DNA of 64,000 nt from NCBI RefSeq assembly GCF_003473485.1, contig NC_053045.1:58012494-58076493 (forward strand), written 5' to 3'. The notes beneath the pieces are model-generated. The model was not told the origin of the DNA, ran no database searches, and saw only the letters and a program-made list of their open reading frames with translations. The first letter of the stretch is position 1. Every line of letters starts with the position of its first letter. The stretch comes from Medicago truncatula (Eukaryota; Streptophyta; Magnoliopsida; Fabales; Fabaceae). Of the stretch, positions 29,126-63,614 are shown in pieces. The position numbers and the translations under genes are program-made.

Positions 29126-29274
29126 TCTAAACATCCTTTGATTAGAAGCAAAATGCTGCTTACATGGACGAAAAAAACCAAAACAATAAAAAAAAAAAAT
29201 ATAACACAATATGAATTAATTTTTTCTTCTTCTTCCTATAATCATTTTGGAAACGGAATTGACATTTCCTCTCA

Positions 29275-30354
29275 ATGTTTCACTATCATTGTTGTCTGAG
29301 AACTCTTCTCTACCTCAACAATCTTTCCAAAACCCCAAAATGTTGTTACCTTCTTCTTCTCCAACCCCACCACTCTCTCAACACCACTTCTGATTCAGAT
29401 CAACACTCTTTCCCAGTTTCCTACCTCACCAACAATTGCGCTTTATCTCCACAAGATGCTCTCAAAGCATCCAAACGACTTCGTTTCAACACTCCCGACA
29501 AACCCGATTCCGTTATCGCCTTTTTCAAAACCCACGGTTTCTCCGATCACCAGATACAAACCATCATTCGCAAGATTCCATTGCTCATCGTTTACAACCC
29601 CATTAAAACCATTTTGCCAAAGTTTCAATTTTTAGCCTCCAAAGGTGCTTCTCCCAAAGACATTGTTGCCACCGTTACCAGAAGCCCCAATTTCCTTTGT
29701 TCAAGCCTTGACAAGAACATAATCCCTTCTTTTGAATTGGTAAGAAGTTTCTGTCCTTCTGATCATAAAGCTATTACTTCAGTAATCATTTGCCCCTCTT
29801 CAATTTGTGATTCTCGCTTTAAACCAAATCTTCAATTTTTGCTTGATTTTGGTGTCACTCGTTCAAGTATTTACCGTTTGCTTACTAGCAGACCTTCCAC
29901 AATATGTTGTACTGATTTGAAAAAGGCTTTGGAGGAGATTAAGGAATTAGGGTTTCAACCTTCCAAATACAATTTTTGTGTAGCATTATTGGCCAAAAGG
30001 GCTGTCACCAAATCCCAATGGGATGCCAAAGTTGATGTCTTGAAGAGTTGGGGTTGTTCTGAAGATGCAGTTTTTAATGCATTTAGGAAGCAACCCAACT
30101 TTATGCTAAGGTCTCCAGATAAACTCAATGCAGTGATGAGTTTTTGGGTCGAGGAGCTTGGTTGGGATCCTTCGCTGCTCTTAGCTGAGCCGACGCTTTT
30201 TGGATACAGTATACAGAAAAGGCTTAGTCCAAGGGCATCAATTGTCAAGTATCTTCTATCCAAAGGTTTGATGAAAGAGGGTGCTAGCTTATGTACACCA
30301 TTTTATCTGACTGATGAGAATTTTCAGCGAAGGTACGTGAGGAGAATCATCTAA
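29275..30354 (+). CDS. mTERF-family organellar transcription/RNA factor
   Basis: A single-exon frame of 359 residues. The N-terminus (about 1-45) is rich in Leu, Ser, Thr and His with almost no acids, a probable mitochondrial or plastid targeting peptide. From about residue 60 there are tandem mTERF motifs of about 35 residues, e.g. SVIAFFKTHGFSDHQIQTII, RKIPLLIVYNPIKTILPKF, KDIVATVTRSPNFLC, KVDVLKSWGCSEDAVFNAF and RKQPNFMLRSPDKLNAVMSF, with the C-terminal LSPRASIVKYLLSKGLM. These helical repeats wrap nucleic acid. Plant members affect organelle transcription, splicing or ribosome assembly. The sequence is typical of the large intronless legume mTERF group, of which many are tandemly arranged. 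A broken second copy lies 400 bp downstream. Confidence 0.92.
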   Translation: MFHYHCCLRTLLYLNNLSKTPKCCYLLLLQPHHSLNTTSDSDQHSFPVSYLTNNCALSPQDALKASKRLRFNTPDKPDSVIAFFKTHGFSDHQIQTIIRKIPLLIVYNPIKTILPKFQFLASKGASPKDIVATVTRSPNFLCSSLDKNIIPSFELVRSFCPSDHKAITSVIICPSSICDSRFKPNLQFLLDFGVTRSSIYRLLTSRPSTICCTDLKKALEEIKELGFQPSKYNFCVALLAKRAVTKSQWDAKVDVLKSWGCSEDAVFNAFRKQPNFMLRSPDKLNAVMSFWVEELGWDPSLLLAEPTLFGYSIQKRLSPRASIVKYLLSKGLMKEGASLCTPFYLTDENFQRRYVRRII

Positions 30355-31087: not shown

Positions 31088-31430
31088 GCTTAAATGTTAT
31101 TTTGATCCCTTAAGTATTTATGTATTTATTTGGTATCGCTTTGGTCTCATAAGTAATAAAAGGTCCGTTTAGGTCCCTTAACTTTATTTAAAGTATCGGT
31201 TTGATCATTTCTGTTAATTTAATTAAAAAAAACGTTAAGTTTAGGGACCAAACTAATACTAATTAAATAAGATAAGAGATCAAAATTTAATGTTTTTTTT
31301 GAATTAAATTAACAGAAAGGATCAAACCGATAGTTTTAATAAAGTTAAGGGGTCAAAACGGACATTTTATTACTTATGGGACGAAAGCGATACTAAATAA
31401 ATACTTAAGGGACCAAAAGAGCATTTAAGC
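31088..31430. mobile_element. Foldback MITE with 9-bp target duplication (Mutator-like)
   Basis: Arms of about 150 bp: 'gcttaaatgttattttgatcccttaagtatt' and its complement 'aatacttaagggaccaaaagagcatttaagc'. The 9-bp 'tattttttt' is duplicated exactly at 31079-31087 and 31431-31439. A further direct repeat, 'tatttttgagaagttat', occurs outside on both sides (near 31056 and 31446), so the target was duplicated more widely. Confidence 0.8.
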
Positions 31431-47406: not shown

Positions 47407-47458
47407 GTCCCACATCGGTTGGGTTTTAGAATAAGAGGAGGGAACAAGCTTATAAATA
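47407..47458 (+). promoter_or_regulatory. snRNA-type promoter: USE plus TATA
   Basis: 'gtcccacatcg' (47407-47417) matches the plant snRNA upstream sequence element RTCCCACATCG. 32 bp later comes 'ttataaata' (47450-47458). This spacing is the Pol II snRNA type. It is identical to the promoter at 57188-57239 although the bases between the two elements differ. Confidence 0.8.
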
Positions 47459-47483
47459 AATCGAACCTACTACGGAAGCGATT

Positions 47484-47658
47484 AACCTGTCCTGTCAGGG
47501 GGTGAAAGGCAACTGGTCAATGATCGTTAAGTGATGACTAGTTGTGCCAACGCCTATAATTACGAACACACATGTAATTCGTACGACTGGTCCTGCCCTA
47601 CTTTGGTCTGGGACTAGCTCGTCAATTTTTGGAAGCTTCTCCTTTTTGGAGAGGCTCT
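47484..47658 (+). ncRNA. snRNA-like gene, candidate U4atac (copy 1)
   Basis: The predicted RNA starts 34 bp after the first base of the TATA with 'aacctgtcctgtcagggggtg'. A 5' stem-loop region follows ('aaaggcaactggtcaatgatcg' to 'tgatgactagttgtgccaacgcc') containing a CAAUGA...GUGA internal-loop signature like the 15.5K site of U4/U4atac. Next come a small hairpin ('aattac'/'gtaatt') and the Sm site AAUUUUUGG (47624-47632). A perfect 9-bp terminal hairpin closes it (47634-47656, one G-U). The order and the segments 'caactg-tcaatga' and 'ccaacgcct...aacacac' resemble human U4atac as I recall it. The 5' end is nearly complementary to the CCUUGACAAGGAUGG region I recall of plant U6atac. U4atac is therefore the preferred but unconfirmed identity. 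Confidence 0.6.
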
Positions 47659-47736
47659 CGATCAATACTTTCCAATTATTTATTATTAATTTTTATTTCC
47701 TACTAACCTTTTTCTTTTGTGGCATTTTATTTATAA

Positions 47737-51053: not shown

Positions 51054-51841
51054 TACGGCGAGGTGTGTGGGAGGTTGGAGGTTGGGGGCCGGAGTTGTTC
51101 TTCTTGGTGGCGGGAGGTGGGGAAGATTAGGGATGGGGATGGTGGTGTTGGGGGGATTGGTTTAAGGATTGTGGTAGCAAGAAGGTGGGGAATGGAAATG
51201 ATACTCTTTTTTGGTTTGATACTTGGTTGGGGTCGTTACCTTTGTGTGTTCGTTTCCGTAGGTTGTTTGAGCTTTTTGAAAATAAATATGTTACAGTGTC
51301 AGATATGTTTTCTCTTGGTGTTGAGGAGGGAGGTGAGGCGTGGCAGTGGAGGCGGAGATTGTGGGCGTGGGAGGAGGAGTTGTTAGTGGAGTGTAGGGCT
51401 TTTCTGCTTGATGTTTCGTTGCTTGTTAATGTTTCAGATCAATGGTTGTGGCTCCCGGAACCCTCGCAGGGTTACTTTGTTCGGGGGGCTTATGCCGTGT
51501 TGACTTCTAAAGATTTACCGATGGTGGACTCGGCTGCGGAGATGATTTGGCACAGACAGGTTCCTTTGAAGGTATCAGTCTTTGCTTGGCGGCTTCTTCG
51601 AGATCGGTTGCCTACCAAATCGAATCTGATCTATAGAGGTGTAATTCCATCAGAAGCTGGTTTGTGTGTCTCTGGATGCGGTGCCTTGGAATCGGCGCAA
51701 CATTTATTTCTCTCTTGTTCATACTTTACTTTATACTTTGTTGTTGTACAGAATTCTGAAGTAATCTTTGTGGCACGTCTTGTGCTAATGAGACTCTTGT
51801 TGTTAATATAATTCTATTTTTTATTGTTAAAAAAAAAAAAA
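51054..51841 (+). mobile_element. 5'-truncated LINE (3' end) with target duplication
   Basis: Only the last about 790 bp of a non-LTR retrotransposon remain. The frame at 51185-51811 reads GNDTLFWFDTWLGSLPLCVR, FAWRLLRDRLPTKSNLIYRG and CGALESAQHLFLSCSYF, the C-terminal region of plant LINE ORF2 with the zf-RVT cysteine/histidine pattern. It ends in A13 (51829-51841). The 14-bp duplication 'aaggacaaatatat' is exact at 51040-51053 and 51842-51855. The GC-richer composition contrasts with the surroundings. The insertion is fairly young. Confidence 0.92.
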
Positions 51842-54579: not shown

Positions 54580-55089
54580 CTTTTGAACATTTTTACGTTC
54601 AATTAAAGCAATATGATTGTCTCATTCTTGTTTCTTTAAAAGATTATTTACCTTTCATTTTGAATTTGTCACAATACATGTGATTCTGTTCGAACCTCAA
54701 AGCGTAGGAGCGAAGATGATTAATTTAAACATGGGCTAACGATGTAGCTTGAAAACATAAATTAAAAGCCTAAGGTACAATAGGTATGTAGCATTCCTTA
54801 TGTTACAGTAATTGTGAAATTGCTGCAATTTAAAATGAGTAAAATTTGATCACTACTTCAGGTGATGTCAATTAAATGGAGAAGTTCTTTTAGGTTGTTA
54901 AAACAACAATGAAAGCAGCTTTCTTGATAACAGTAGTTTTACGCCTTTAAACTCATTTTCTACAAATCCAGAAAACAAACCCATTACAGACTCCAGAGAA
55001 TAGTTTAGGTGCGCACTTGCTACTGATATTGTGCACCAATTCTCTCCTTTTGAGATATAGTTTCTTTCTCCGTGTAGCATAAATGAAAA

Positions 55090-56780
55090 CTATTGGGTTG
55101 CTTGTTCTCTGGACGTCGGATTCTTAAGGCTGCAGCTCTTTTTCTGCAAGATTCTGTACCTTTGAATCTGATGATTCCAAAAATGCCGAGAAAAATAAAA
55201 CATAAGAAATTGGTTCTCTGCATCCTGATTCCGAAGAAAGATAAAAATATACGAGCTAATTACCTACCTGTGGTCATGCGCCCATAACTCACTTTTCCCT
55301 TTTAACGCCTCCTCCCCCATAGGATGGAAGCAAAGTTGGGGCAATCCAAATTATAGTTTTCTTCTAATAGTCAGACTTGAAAAGAAATTTTCAAGGACGT
55401 GCTCCTCTTGTGAATCTTCTGACTTAAGCACTGCTGCAAGAGATGCTATTGCTTTGTGGAGAGAATTAATCTTATCATCCAAAAATGGATGCAGTATGCC
55501 ACCAGATCGTCCTGTTGAAACCTATGTGTGCCATTATATCGGCTGCTGTTTTAGATTTCTTGTAGATATCATATGTGAAGTATGAAAGAAGAAACCTTAT
55601 CCAAAACAAGCTCCTTCGGGATTTTATTGAATCTCACGAACAATAACCTGCAATTAAAGTTAAGTTATGAGGAATTAGAAGTTATGGGGAATATGATTGA
55701 TTCCCTTTAACTGATAATGGGAGTTCCTTGATTCTTTTAAAATCTGAAACGCATTGATTTTAAACAAGTAGATAAAGAATAGAGTAGCAAGTGGCAACTA
55801 CTTATGGGAAGCAAGCAACTATTGATAGACTTGCCATCAATGACTCCAGGAACAGTGGAGGCATATAAATATGTTAAGCAAGCATGTGAGACTTACTTTA
55901 ACCCCAAATGTTTTGCAAACACAGCTATTTTCAAATTTATGAATTATTTCATTTTGACTTAGTTCCAGAAGGCCAAATCTTTTTTTGTGCCCACTCCATT
56001 ATGCAAGATTTAGACTTTGATACCAAAAATGAAAAGGATAACCAAACATAAATATCTGAGCAACAAAACATAGCTATAGTCAAATCACTAACTATACACC
56101 CATATTGATGATAAGGTATTTTTCCTATGTGCCCTTTCAATCCTTTGTAATCTTCTTTGTTTCCTAAAAAGGGAATATAAAGTAGAAGAATGAGTTATAT
56201 GTCAAATTCAATCATCAGAAGTACTTCAAATATTTCCACTTTAAAACTCCGAGAGAGGTATTCAACTAATGCAGTTCACAGATAGATAAGAGAAGTTGGA
56301 ACAGAAGTTTCATCTTTCCTTCCTATATAAGTTTGTAGAGATAACAGATTGGACATGTCCTTTTATATTACACAGACACAAACATCATTCTTCCTTGATA
56401 GTATTTCTCACATCCTAAACAAGCCATGTTCAATTTAAACTTCAAGTCAATTTGCAGGTCTCAGAAAGGTGAAAAGCTTTCATCTGGTATGCCATTGAAA
56501 AATAACTTCAGTAAACCATTGACAGGTGTCAACTATAGCCCAAACCTATGTTACATACCAACTGATCTAACCATGTGACGAATAAGAGGAGCAACATGAA
56601 CATGAATACTAGAGACAAAGCCTGCCAGTTGTTTCTTTCAAGCAGAACATTAGCATTGTCAACCGTCTTCTTTACTAAGTGAACAGCATATGCATTGTAT
56701 GCTAGATTTAGAAAATGAGGACGAAGCTCTTCGAATACTTCATCTCTTTCAGCTTGTGAACAATGTTTAGCACAAATCTT
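55090..56780 (-). pseudogene. Decayed duplicate of the PUM24/PUF6-type gene
   Basis: The minus strand repeats exons of the intact gene at 59342-63421. 55095-55190 matches its last exon, 55268-55510 matches 59571-59819 (including the LENF.S..TI region), 55612-55662 matches 60837-60887, and 56095-56165 matches 62122-62193 (MKGHIGKIPYHQYGC). 56567-56775 encodes an upstream exon that lies outside the window in the intact copy (CSQAERDEVFEELRPHFLNL, AYNAYAVHLVKKTVDNA, HVHVAPLIRHM). The middle exons are absent and several frames are shifted. It is a partial, non-functional copy. Confidence 0.85.
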
Positions 56781-57187: not shown

Positions 57188-57239
57188 GTCCCACATCGGA
57201 AAGAGTAGAAAGTAAAATGAGGGAAGATAGTTATAAATA
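57188..57239 (+). promoter_or_regulatory. snRNA-type promoter: USE plus TATA (copy 2)
   Basis: 'gtcccacatcg' (57188-57198), a 32-bp gap, then 'ttataaata' (57231-57239). The motifs and spacing are the same as at 47407-47458. Confidence 0.82.
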
Positions 57240-57264: not shown

Positions 57265-57432
57265 AACCTGTCCTGTCAGGGGGTGAAAGGCAACTCGCCA
57301 ATGACCGTTAAGAGACGGTGGGTTGCGCCAACACCTATTATTTCGAACACACCTGCCGCGCGAGTAACAGTTCATTCCTTACTTTGGTTTCGGACGGCAT
57401 CTCGTCAATTTTTGGAAGCCGAAAGGCTCTCG
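57265..57432 (+). ncRNA. snRNA-like gene, candidate U4atac (copy 2)
   Basis: It starts 34 bp after the TATA begins, as copy 1 does, with the same 5' segment 'aacctgtcctgtcaggggg' and 'tgaaaggcaac'. Stems are conserved by compensating changes: copy 1 pairs GGUG with CGCC where copy 2 pairs GGUG with CACC, and the inner CUGGUCA/UGACUAG of copy 1 corresponds to CGCC/GGUG plus ACCGU/ACGGU here. The Sm site AAUUUUUGG is at 57407-57415 with the same 'ctcgtc' in front. The 3' hairpin is shorter (AGCC-GAAA-GGCU) yet still pairs. The middle (57350-57395) has diverged. U4atac identity is preferred but unconfirmed. This copy keeps all landmark elements. Confidence 0.62.
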
Positions 57433-57690
57433 TTATTCAATCAATTCTTGAAAAGATTTATCTTATTGATTTTCACATGAATTTTAGGTGTCTTTGGTTT
57501 GTTTGTCGTTTTATGCGACGTTGTTAGATTTTTTTTTTGTCTAAAGAAAAATTTGCAAACTCTTTAATTCTTTTGTCCCAAAAAATTCTTAAAATATGAA
57601 TTAAAAATAAAATTTTAAGCGTAAAAAATATAAAGATTTATATTTAATTTATCTCTCAATAAAATATTTTAAACTTTATACACTAAACAT

Positions 57691-58689: not shown

Positions 58690-59335
58690 CTTCTTCCACA
58701 TTTTGGTACTTGCAGGCAGCAGAATGCTGCATGAAAAGAAAAAAAAAATCCCTTCGTTTATGCGGTAAAAAACAAGGATATTTGTGAATAGTTTTACAGT
58801 AAAGCGATATGATTGCCACATTATTGCTCTATTTAGAAGGATAAAAATGGAGTACCTATCATTTAGAATTTGTCATGATACAAAATGAAGTACCTATCAT
58901 TTAGAACTTGTCATGATACACGTGACTATGTTCGAACCTGTGTTCGAACCTCCAATCACAGGAAGAAGCAACAATGATTAAAAATAAACAGAACAGCCAA
59001 ACACCGTAAGGCTACAAAGATACAATAGGTGGGTGTGTAGGATTCCTTGTTACAGTAACCGTAAAATCAATGTAATTAAAAATGGACAAAATTTGATCAC
59101 TACTTCAGGTGATGTCTATGTAATTTTTTAAGTTTTTTAAAGGTTATCAAAATTACATCAAAAGTAGATTTCTCAATAACACTAGTTTTATGCCTTTTAA
59201 CTCTTTCTTTCAACAAATCCAGAATAGAAACCCATTACAGGCACCCGAAAAATGATATAGGGGTGCATTGGCTACTATATTGCGCGTCAATTCTCTCCAT
59301 CTGAAGATATAGTTTCTTTCTCCATGCAGCATAAA
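58690..59335 (+). repeat. Second copy of the J-protein 3' end and downstream flank
   Basis: 'cacattttggtacttgcaggcagcagaatgctgca' (58698) parallels 'cgcattttggtatttgcagacatctagtatgctgca' in the J-protein last exon (54445). The following 'gaatttgtcatgatac...gttcgaacct', 'cagtaaccgtaaaatc' and 'cactacttcaggtgatgtc' parallel 54660-54870. The segment thus begins inside a J-protein exon and runs into PUM24 flank, marking the duplication boundary. No working J-protein is encoded here. Confidence 0.8.
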
Positions 59336-59341
59336 TTAAAA

Positions 59342-62300
59342 TCACTGGCTTGCTTGTTCTTTGGCCTGTGGGTTCTTGAGAACTCCATTATCAATTAAAG
59401 GCTGCAACTCTTTTTTTGCAAGCTTCTGTACCTTTGAATCTGTTGATTCCAAAAATGCAGTGATAACCTTACAGCTGCAATCACAAAGTCAAGAAAAAGA
59501 AAACATAAGAAATTGTTCCTCTGTACCATGATTCTGTTGGATTGTAATATGCGAGCAAATGAGACCCCACCTGTGACCATGGGCCCATAATTCACATTTC
59601 CCTTTTAAAGCTTCCTTCCATAAGATGGAAGCAAAGTCAGGGCAGTCCAAGATTAGTTTTCTAATGGTCCGATTTGAAAAGAAATTTTCAAGGACGTGCT
59701 CCTCTTGTGAATCTTCTGACTTAGGCACTGCTGCAAGAGATGCTATCGCTTTGTGGAGAGAATTAATCTTATCATCCAAAGTTGGATGCAATATGCCCTC
59801 AGATCCCCCAGTCGCAACCTGCATGTTGCCATTGAATTTATCAAAAAGGCAATGCTACGTAACAAATTGAGCTTGTAAAATTTAAATATCAATGTAATAA
59901 CTATTACCTCGTATATGACCTCTTTGCCAAAATTTGACCGTATCAGTTCTCCTACATTCTCAATACATATATCAAGAAGACTCTGTAGAAAATTACAATC
60001 AAACATTACTTTCAGTACAATTTCACAATCCAGAAGTTATTGATGTAAATAACCTTTCCCATAAAAAAAAAAATGAATCAGGCCAGCAACCAGAGGTTAA
60101 GGAAAATACAGAGGAATACATCACTATAAAACACAAGTAAAACATGGAAGGATAACTAATTTATTAGAAGGAAAGCTAAAGCAGCCGACCTCTGCAAATC
60201 CACTGTTGATCAATAGCTCCTGCCTTCTGACCAATGGGTCTTTCTTTCCACTCTCAGCTAGGTCAGTATCATCCACAGAAGTTTTATCTTCATTAACTTC
60301 GGGCACTTTCACTTCGCTGTCTTCCATGGAATCATCGTTGCCAATTGAAACCTTGGAAGTTTCTGTCTGAGAGCTTGCTTCTGACTGATCCTGACAGTGA
60401 TCAGAATGAATGAAGTGATTAATGAGTTGCTAAAGTATAAAAAGACGGAAAAGATGGGAACAAAAGAAACCTTGAGAGACAGAGAAGGTATAGATGAATT
60501 CATAGAAGCAAGTTCATCAGGACTGAAATAGCGTGAACAGTTGGGGTGTAGTAATTGGAGTAAAGGACGTCTTCCATTCTGAAAATCCAGAAGTTATATT
60601 CATCAAAACATCATAAACCACATCATAAGAACATAAAATATTTATGCATTGTTTTATTTATGGGATTGAAGAAGCTAGGGCAGGAGGAACAAAGAAATTA
60701 CTGCCAAATAGATGCTAAGTGCATATAAAGGATTTCAAGAATATTCTTATTATTATTTGATGAAAATTATAGTTTATATTGGCTTCTTTTTTACAATGAT
60801 TGTAAATATCATATGTGAAGTATAAAATAAAAGAACCTTGTCCAAAACAAGCTCCTTCAGAATTGATTGAAGCTCGCGAATGATAACCTGAAATGAGAAT
60901 ATTTTAAAAGCTTAATATGAAACAAGTATCATTAAATATAGAGCAACAATTACTATGCAATAGAATATCAAAATCAAACTCACCTTTGTTATCAGTTTTG
61001 TGTCGTCGACAACTGAAAGGATGGAAACCAGCACCTAAGAGTTTAAATGAATAAAATATTCAAATTTTAAGTTCTGAATGGAAGGTAAGTTATGACGAAT
61101 AAGACTTTGGGGAAATATGATTCCCTTTCACTGATAATGGGAGTTTATTCATTATTTTATAATCTGAAACAAGAAAACTTTAAACAAGTACTAGATAAAG
61201 AATATTGTAGCAAGTAGCAATTACATATGGAAAGCAAGCAACTACTAAGTCAGTAGACTGAACAGTTAGGCAAGCATCTAAGCCTCACTTTTTTTTTTTG
61301 ACAAAATGTAAGCCTTACTTTAACCCTAAAGGTATGTTTGGATGAAGGGTTTAGGAGGGGAGGGGAGTGCTTGCTTTTCTTTTTTAAATTACGGACACTA
61401 TATGATGTTTTTTTAAATCAATTAAGTGTGATTGAACTTATGATCATTAATCATGATATTCTTTTAATTGTTCTAGAATATATCAAAATATAGACTTAGC
61501 CCTTCAAAGTCCTTAAGTCCTCCCCTCCAAAAACCCTCTCCGAAACGGACCCCTAAGGCTTTCTTTGGGAGTTTGGAGGGGAAGGGAGGGTTTTGTGAAA
61601 AAAGGAAGGATCAAGTGGATGAAATAAAGGACTTTGAGAGGGGAGGGTTTTGGGGTGTTCACTTTTCTTCATAATACAAAATCCTCCTAATTTGGGGGAA
61701 CTAAAAAATTGTATTGGAGGGATTAGAAGGGTTTATATGAATTCTTCAAATTCAATCTATGTTGTTATAATATTCTTAAAATTAAAAATATATTAATCAT
61801 AAGCATTAATTTATCATTCTCTAAAAAAATACTCCTACAAAAAATGTGAAAGATCTCCATTTTCCCCTAAAATTCCCCACCCCGCAAAAGCCCTCCCCTC
61901 CCCTCCAAACTCCCAAACAAAGCCCAAGTGTTTTGTAAACAGATATTTCACCACTATTTTCCCATTTATTAATTCTTTCAGTGTGCCCATTTTGACCTAG
62001 TTCAGAAGGCCACACTGTTTTTTACTATATGTGTGCCCATTAAGCAAGATTAAGACTTCGATACCAAAAATTAAAAGTAGGTAGCTGTGCAACGAAACAT
62101 AGCTAGAGTAAAATCACTAACCATACACCCATATTGATGATAAGCTGTTTTCCCTATGTGCCCTTTCAATCCTTTGATAATCTTCTTTCTTTCCTAAATA
62201 GGGAATGTGAAGTAGAATGAATTATGTGTCAGATTCGATCATCGTGAATACTTCACACGTTTCAATTTAAAATAATAGTTGCTAAACAAACCTTGGCATT

Positions 62301-63421
62301 CCCATATTTCACACAAAGAATTCCAATTTTGGCACCATCCTTTGTACCAATCATTCTGATAAGTAGTGGACTTGATAACTGTTGAATTATCTCTGCAACA
62401 GAGGTCTTTGAAAAAACTCAATTTAGATAGCTAAATGCTATTGCCATAACCAAATTCCTTAGCTGTAACAAAAACCACAACGAATTGTTGCAGGAAAGAA
62501 AAAGGGGTACCTTATCAGCAATGCTAAAGTATTCCAACAAGACTCTGTGTAGGATAGAGTGGTCAACTATCCCTTTCTCTAAAATTGGCTGAATCACTTT
62601 CGACATATGACGTGAAACTGAGCCTTTTTGTAGACCCAACTTGGACATTACATCTAGTAATCTGACATGTAATTGAAAGAAAACTAAGTAAAAATACTCC
62701 AGAAAGAGGAAAATAAAATAAAGCATCATATTGAATTCCATCAGATCGTGATCAGTAAAATTAAGAGATTAAGTAAGACCAGTTCATGAAGAGTAGCAAT
62801 TATTGCTAACAAAATTCGGAGACTGCAAAATACATTGCCAGCTTCATTACATAAAATTATCAATCAAACTGATGTCAGGTAATTATTTGTCCAAAAGTAT
62901 ATAAGTAAAAGTCAAAATATTCAACTTGTCATGTTTTCTAAGCAACATTAACTATTATTAATTTTAATTATCAGAGACTGTTAAGACCCGTAGTATGACG
63001 GCATATTCTTCAGTATACTCACGTATAAATTAATATATGATGACATAAGAAACCTCTAATCAAGCAAAAGCTAATTAAGTGCCTATTGGATAACTTGCAA
63101 TCTTTGCTTCTGTGTTCTATGCAGGTCTCAGTGAAATTAAAAAAAAGTTGGAACAGAAGATCATCCTTCTCAACAAGAAAAACAGTAAATTCAAAATTCC
63201 ATTCATGATTATTATATTATTTTTAAAATGTGGCACCTAGAAGAGATATAGACAAGCAACAATGTCCCAAATGCTTTAATATAATTCCTGACAGCAGAAT
63301 CTTTACCTGGTTTCCTTCGCTGGGACTAGGTCCTTAAACAACTGAAGCTCTGTGGAATATAATTCCAAAAGTAGCTCTTGCTTTTGTGCAGCACTGGCTA
63401 AGTCGTATGCATGCTCAACAA
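59342..63421 (-). CDS. Pumilio-type nucleolar RNA-binding protein (PUM24/PUF6 class), 5' end outside window
   Basis: Exons on the minus strand, 5' to 3': 63307-63421, 62511-62661, 62292-62405, 62122-62193, 60984-61034, 60837-60887, 60471-60578, 60190-60390, 59908-59982, 59571-59819 and 59342-59474 (stop). All have GT-AG borders and join in frame. The product reads VEHAYDLASAAQKQELLLEL, VMSKLGLQKGSVSRHM, VIQPILEKGIVDHSILHRVL, PLLIRMIGTKDGAKIGILCV, KYGNAKERKKIIKGLKGH, VLVSILSVVDDTKLITK, NGRRPLLQLLHP, an acidic linker, then GKKDPLVRRQELLINSGFAE and the C-terminal CPL region to NGVLKNPQAKEQASQ. In Arabidopsis and yeast this class acts in pre-rRNA processing in the nucleolus. N-terminal exons lie to the right of the window. 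The decayed copy at 55090-56780 shows the exon expected next. Confidence 0.93.
61330..61553. mobile_element. MITE in a PUM24 intron (first of two)
   Basis: 'ggtatgtttggatgaagggtttaggaggggaggggag' is inverted at the right as 'cctcccctccaaaaaccctctccgaaacggacccc'. It lies in the intron between exons 62122-62193 and 60984-61034. Confidence 0.6.
61556..61925. mobile_element. MITE in a PUM24 intron (second of two)
   Basis: The arms 'ggctttctttgggagtttggaggggaagggagggtttt' and 'aaaagccctcccctcccctccaaactcccaaacaaagccc' are near-perfect complements. It is adjacent to the previous MITE, and the two share related ends. Confidence 0.75.
62665..63300 (-). other. Intron of the PUM24-type gene
   Basis: AT-rich intron between exons 63307-63421 and 62511-62661. 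No further feature seen. Confidence 0.5.
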
Positions 63422-63614
63422 CTGCATAAGATGTATATACATAAAACTTAATTTAAGGAAGCTGATGTTGACTAAATACTGAAATATTTGAATTATTGAC
63501 TGACAACAATTAGTTTTGGTGCATGAAAAACCAAGAAATGCAAAAAGAAAACAAATTGAATCCCCTCTCTCTCTTCCTTGCTAGTCTTTCTCGCATCCTA
63601 AACAAGCCAGCTTT

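Follow-up and report, generated by a model that had tools for sequence, protein, structure and literature searches.

Does this locus of Medicago truncatula encode a U4atac snRNA, the RNA that is essential to minor splicing, as a preliminary description had proposed, and if so, does it work? Within the window (the whole stretch of DNA that was analysed, 64,000 nucleotides long) the answer takes the form of two loci rather than one. The locus first described, copy A, is almost certainly a U4atac minor-spliceosomal snRNA gene and, to judge from the elements that it carries, very probably a functional one. A further locus about 10 kb away, copy B, which had not figured in the preliminary description, is best read as a second U4atac gene, a diverged tandem paralogue of copy A. 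The features of both are collected in Table 1.

Table 1. Features assigned to U4atac copies A and B (window positions).
Feature	Position	Strand	Remarks
Copy A USE, TCCCACATCG	47408–47417	+	10/10 match; 33 bp 5' of TATA box
Copy A TATA box, TATAAA	47451–47456	+	First base 33 bp 5' of the gene start (47484)
Copy A, predicted U4atac snRNA gene, ~174 nt	47484–47657	+	RF00618 match, U6atac pairing; start and 3' end predicted from sequence
Copy A stem II strand	47486–47501	+	Pairs with U6atac in two helices, 5 bp and 11 bp, around one bulged G of U6atac
Copy A 5' stem-loop with K-turn-like internal loop CAAUGA...GUGA	47510–47544	+	Putative 15.5K site; 9 bp, covariation with copy B
Copy A stem I strand, UGCCAAC	47545–47551	+	Complements U6atac GUUGGCA; compensatory versus Rfam consensuses
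Copy A Sm site, AAUUUUUGG (DNA AATTTTTGG)	47624–47632	+	Aligns to Sm end of RF00618
Copy A post-Sm hairpin, AGCTTCTCC-TTTTT-GGAGAGGCT	47634–47656	+	9 bp, UUUUU loop
Copy B USE, TCCCACATCG	57189–57198	+	Same motif as copy A
Copy B TATA box, TATAAA	57232–57237	+	Promoter spacing comparison
Copy B, predicted U4atac snRNA gene	57265–57430	+	RF00618, 29.6 bits; start and 3' end predicted from sequence
Copy B stem II strand	57267–57282	+	Identical to copy A stem II strand
Copy B 5' stem-loop, internal loop CAAUGA...GAGA	57291–57325	+	A/B comparison
Copy B stem I strand, GCCAAC	57327–57332	+	U6atac pairing
Copy B Sm site, AAUUUUUGG	57407–57415	+	Same as copy A
Copy B post-Sm hairpin, AGCC-GAAA-GGCU	57417–57428	+	4 bp, GAAA loop

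Covariance-model scans with Rfam return U4atac (RF00618) as the best family for both copies, at 39.4 bits for copy A (47485–47636) and 29.6 bits for copy B (57266–57419), the match to copy A having an E-value of 2e-5 when a 401-base stretch is scanned and of 0.0031 when the whole window is. The snRNA family match that the preliminary description had asked for is thereby obtained, though under the gathering score: neither copy reaches the 53 bits set for RF00618, a value that is the curator's reporting threshold and not a feature of the RNA. A default Rfam scan therefore misses both copies, and their U4atac matches emerge only at a permissive threshold. Scanned at the Rfam gathering score, the window gives as its sole report a single repeat of a microRNA family, hit on both strands. 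Because such a scan leaves copy A unreported, it is plausible that the locus is missing from gene sets, as had been suspected. The MIR2655 family matches 31145–31381 on both strands (224.6 and 188.8 bits), a pattern that fits a palindromic, MITE-like element better than a microRNA gene. Repeats of such microRNA families are typical of Medicago.

Genome-wide, in an assembly of 429,922,655 bases, an RF00618 search at E up to 10 places copy A first (E = 0.005) and copy B third (E = 0.619) among the 4 matches listed. The other two, L010 and L012 (30 and 25 bits), were rejected as U4atac genes and set aside because they are without the 5' end and the USE, each agreeing with the former at 10/22 places at best and with the latter at 7/10 at best. 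The Sm-type sequence AATTTTTGG is present in L010 and absent from L012.

Family scores were complemented, decisively, by the pairing partner found in the same genome, its own U6atac, which scores 92 bits. U6atac gives 8 matches at E up to 0.001, 7 of them over the cut-off, and the genome also yields U12 and U11 matches that exceed theirs. Three of the U6atac matches (L001–L003) come with USE, TATA-like element and terminal T-run, a fourth (L004) comes with a USE and no T-run, and the remaining four (L005–L008) have no recognisable USE. The three intact-looking genes L001–L003 lie on contig C5 at 4.69–4.77 Mb, less than 85 kb apart, each with its USE 26 bp before the TATA-like element, which is the spacing of U6 genes. 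L005 and L006, on contig C1 at ~2.97 Mb, are identical over the gene and the examined flanks, stand 12 kb apart in opposite orientation, have no recognisable USE and are probably pseudogenes that form part of a larger inverted repeat.

The 22-nt 5' end common to copies A and B pairs with the U6atac of L001, L002 and L003 at −30.3 kcal/mol, a value that 0 of 1000 shuffles reach against L002 (mean −16.2, sd 2.9). The stem II so formed consists of 16 bp, in which 11 bp and 5 bp, the latter with two wobbles, are separated by a G bulged out of U6atac; the species' own U6atac thus pairs far better than the preliminary description had proposed, with one bulge instead of two or three. When all 127,956 22-mers of the window (both strands) are ranked against the U6atac core, copy B comes first (−31.3) and copy A second (−30.8), followed by the next separate site at −28.7, so that the margin of copy A over that site (−30.8 versus −28.7) is modest: real, not wide. 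Stem I, 3' of the 5' stem-loop, adds 7 bp with U6atac in copy A and 6 bp in copy B, and its letters read CCAAC/GUUGG here against CUAAC/GUUAG in the Rfam consensuses, a double change from U-A to C-G. In the unconstrained minimum-energy co-fold of either copy with U6atac stem I does not appear; the Y shape of copies A and B with U6atac was written by hand and only its energy evaluated, at −49.4 and −49.5. With U4atac as best family and the genome's own U6atac as partner, the proposed identity stands, and complementarity to that U6atac is shown to identify U4atac where the Rfam threshold fails.

Could the two copies instead belong to the major U4 snRNA, as diverged genes or as pseudogenes? They share its overall plan and, as discussed below, its promoter spacing, and the U4 loci of this genome likewise show hairpin-forming letters after the Sm site (judged by eye, not folded). 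The choice of partner, however, runs the other way. At −30.3 kcal/mol with U6atac against −19.7 kcal/mol with U6, copies A and B are the reverse of 13 U4 loci with one common 22-nt 5' end, which pair at −29.6 with U6 and at −15.1 with U6atac (these being 13 of 20 U4 loci fetched, of 27 matched in the genome); with U6, the two copies thus stay well short of the −29.6 of the U4 loci. Their own 5' end, moreover, agrees with that of U4 at only 10/22 places. U4 is also unlisted for either stretch at E up to 10, where U4atac is listed, with the proviso that, where families are related, the listing shows just the best one and a weaker U4 match may exist; and the genome search with the U4 family, for all its 27 matches, lists none in the window. 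We consider a U4 origin very improbable.

The spacing between USE and TATA box sets the polymerase in plants. The promoter pattern CCCACATCG occurs twice in the window, against a mean of 0.10 in 100 shuffles, and both occurrences are the promoters of copies A and B. The USE and TATA box that had been described for copy A are indeed there, with a gap of 33 bp, the same as in copy B, instead of the 32 given before; the TATA box likewise begins 33 bp, not 34, ahead of the start. Among the U4 loci examined (20 of 27 matched), 15 have a gap of 32–35, counting loci whose USE matches at 9/10 or better and whose TATA box matches at 5/6 or better, and the other five are without recognisable USE and TATA box. 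The gap is 24–26 in all 15 U6 loci examined (45 matched) and 26 in 4/8 U6atac matches, those with a USE. The promoter spacing of copies A and B is that of the genome's U4 genes, not that of its U6 and U6atac genes.

The plant 3'-end box, CA(N)3-10AGTNNAA, serves polymerase II snRNA genes as a processing signal and lies outside the RNA, and it is therefore not family-defining. It is absent, within one substitution, from the 60 nt downstream of copies A and B; it is exact in 10/20 U4 loci, not exact in the other 10, some of which are perhaps pseudogenes, and present within one substitution in both U12 loci. Just 3' of both genes, at 47663–47670 and 57442–57449, a similar CAAT(A/T)CTT stands amid diverged sequence and may possibly represent a diverged 3'-end signal.

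Comparison of the two copies shows where conservation resides. Their first 31 nt are identical (31/31), and identity is complete over the USE (13/13), the first 22 nt (22/22) and the Sm site onward (12/12; 47624–47635 in copy A). Elsewhere it falls to 17/32 in the gap between USE and TATA box, 9/21 between TATA box and start and 22/60 downstream. The surroundings have thus diverged to 37–53% identity and conservation is concentrated on the functional elements. In the 9-bp stem of the 5' stem-loop all pairs are kept across both copies (9/9), four of them varying, two by changes on both sides; when the same six changes are placed at random, all nine pairs survive in 157 of 200,000 trials, or in 2,363 of 200,000 if placement carries a transition bias.

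These observations bear on whether copy A alone is a working U4atac gene and copy B a decaying pseudogene. Several traits of copy B would suit decay: its lower score of 29.6 bits, one stem I pair fewer, GAGA for GUGA, a central domain that folds less stably and a 3' hairpin with fewer pairs. Decay would leave unaccounted for its intact promoter, its 31/31 5' nucleotides and its Sm site, and the 9/9 stem pairs with compensatory changes, all kept while the surroundings fell to such low identity. We regard a pseudogene as unlikely, if still a reading of some weight. Copy B is probably functional too, since promoter, U6atac pairing, Sm site and all nine stem pairs appear to have been kept while its surroundings diverged.

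Outside the conserved elements, the two predicted RNAs differ. The internal loop that had been described as U4-like is present in copy A, with CAATGA at 47518–47523 and GTGA at 47531–47534. In both copies CAAUGA and GA are found as in U4-class RNAs; the 3' strand of the K-turn-like loop reads GUGA in copy A and GAGA in copy B. Relative to the Rfam consensus this strand has one extra nucleotide between GA and the stem (U in copy A, C in copy B), and the inner stem is weak, its first pair being U.U in copy A and C.A in copy B. Over 185 nt, copy A folds with z = −4.6, none of 200 shuffles being equally stable. The two central domains fold differently, less stably in copy B, and are without a convincing common fold. 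The Sm-type AATTTTTGG of copy A lies where it had been placed, and the terminal hairpin beyond it has its 9 bp, one of which is U.G, so that the hairpin is perfect, as had been claimed, only with wobble allowed; in copy B it has 4 bp and a GAAA loop.

A non-spliceosomal Sm-class small RNA, for example of U7-like or SmY-like type, is another reading, and the Sm site and hairpin of copy A do give a weak SmY match (22 bits against a cut-off of 39). An RNA of that sort would leave unexplained both the best match to U4atac and the complementarity to U6atac, 16 bp plus 6–7 bp in the right order, and we hold it to be extremely improbable beside a U4atac gene.

DNA searches of the 430-Mb genome with copy A, with copy B and with a 20-base 5'-end pattern each return only copies A and B, these counts being lower bounds since copies with common words can be missed. 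The hundreds of dispersed copies that, according to the preliminary description, would have marked the sequence as a repeat were thus not returned by the genome searches. Exact-pattern scans for the 5' end in other genome-contig and viral-contig collections gave no match, which is as expected for a plant gene. There is little room for a transposon-derived or chance sequence with snRNA-like motifs: transposon remnants do occur nearby (zf-RVT at 51131–51811), but two copies only were returned by DNA and pattern searches of the whole genome, and what these two have kept in common lies mainly in the functional elements. Such an origin is scarcely credible next to that of a U4atac gene pair.

As to how the pair arose, the stretch 54649–56426 is repeated at 58891–63609 in the same order, in six pieces of 75.6–92.1% identity. 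A likely source of this arrangement is a tandem duplication that copied U4atac together with the adjoining stretch as one block. The zf-RVT domain (PF13966, forward strand) is a retroelement remnant between the two U4atac copies, and an mTERF-family protein gene is found at 29263–30354(+) (PF02536, E 1e-37).

Taken together with what is known of the family, these features suggest the following course. RNA polymerase II would transcribe copies A and B from their USE/TATA plant snRNA promoters, and the Sm site of the RNA would bind the Sm ring. From the complementarity described above, pairing with U6atac is predicted for two parts of the RNA: stem II at its 5' end, and stem I in the segment that follows the 5' stem-loop. 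By analogy with other U4atac RNAs, the RNA would keep U6atac inactive and bring it to the minor spliceosome, with 15.5K/PRPF31 presumably bound at the 5' stem-loop during delivery, and the U4atac/U6atac duplex would be unwound before U12-type introns are cut. A further proposal is that two structurally different U4atac RNAs are expressed from the tandem pair, having the same U6atac-pairing end and a different central domain and 3' hairpin, and both carrying an extra K-turn nucleotide for which 15.5K/PRPF31 would have to make room. This is possible, though on balance we doubt it. Were it true, plant minor tri-snRNPs would come as variants and could be regulated separately.

The kind of RNA is already known; what the locus adds is a real gene that automatic annotation can miss. 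The legume copies are strongly diverged and therefore fall under the standard model cut-off, and such genes can consequently be counted absent. What is provided here is a tested legume U4atac, a diverged pair whose natural variants, with their compensatory changes, offer material for structure–function studies and for improving the plant model. The usefulness of the locus thus lies in both respects, the default scan missing the copies and the pair supplying natural variants.

Set beside human and Rfam U4atac (RF00618), copies A and B present the same elements, namely stem II strand, 5' stem-loop with CAAUGA, stem I strand, a further domain and the Sm site AAUUUUUGG, and differ in scoring under the cut-off, in the extra K-turn nucleotide, in a longer central region, in the post-Sm hairpin and in stem I letters that are changed jointly with those of U6atac. 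For human RNU4ATAC, PMC7337319 gives a length of 131 nt and places a variant at position 124 within the Sm site; these dimensions leave the human RNA little space for a post-Sm hairpin. Plant U4 snRNA (RF00015) resembles copies A and B in promoter spacing and general plan, its 5' end pairing with U6 where theirs pairs with U6atac. In a survey of minor snRNAs the same Rfam models were applied at E 0.01, as stated in the relevant part of PMC10639083, and at that value copy A passes genome-wide (0.005) and copy B fails (0.619). The Arabidopsis minor spliceosome is treated in sections of PMC4892727 and PMC3422263. The closest precedent is the Arabidopsis U4atac gene At4g16065, for which the pertinent passages of Wang and Brendel (2004, PMC545797) describe a USE, a TATA box and an Sm site, and which was found via complementarity to its U6atac after BLAST with the human gene had failed. 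The stem II sequence deduced there, CCCGTCTCTGTCAGAGGAG, has the CTGTCAG core in common with copies A and B. As described in the same passages (PMC545797), the Arabidopsis gene is single copy and its structure nearly identical to the human one, whereas two copies are present here.
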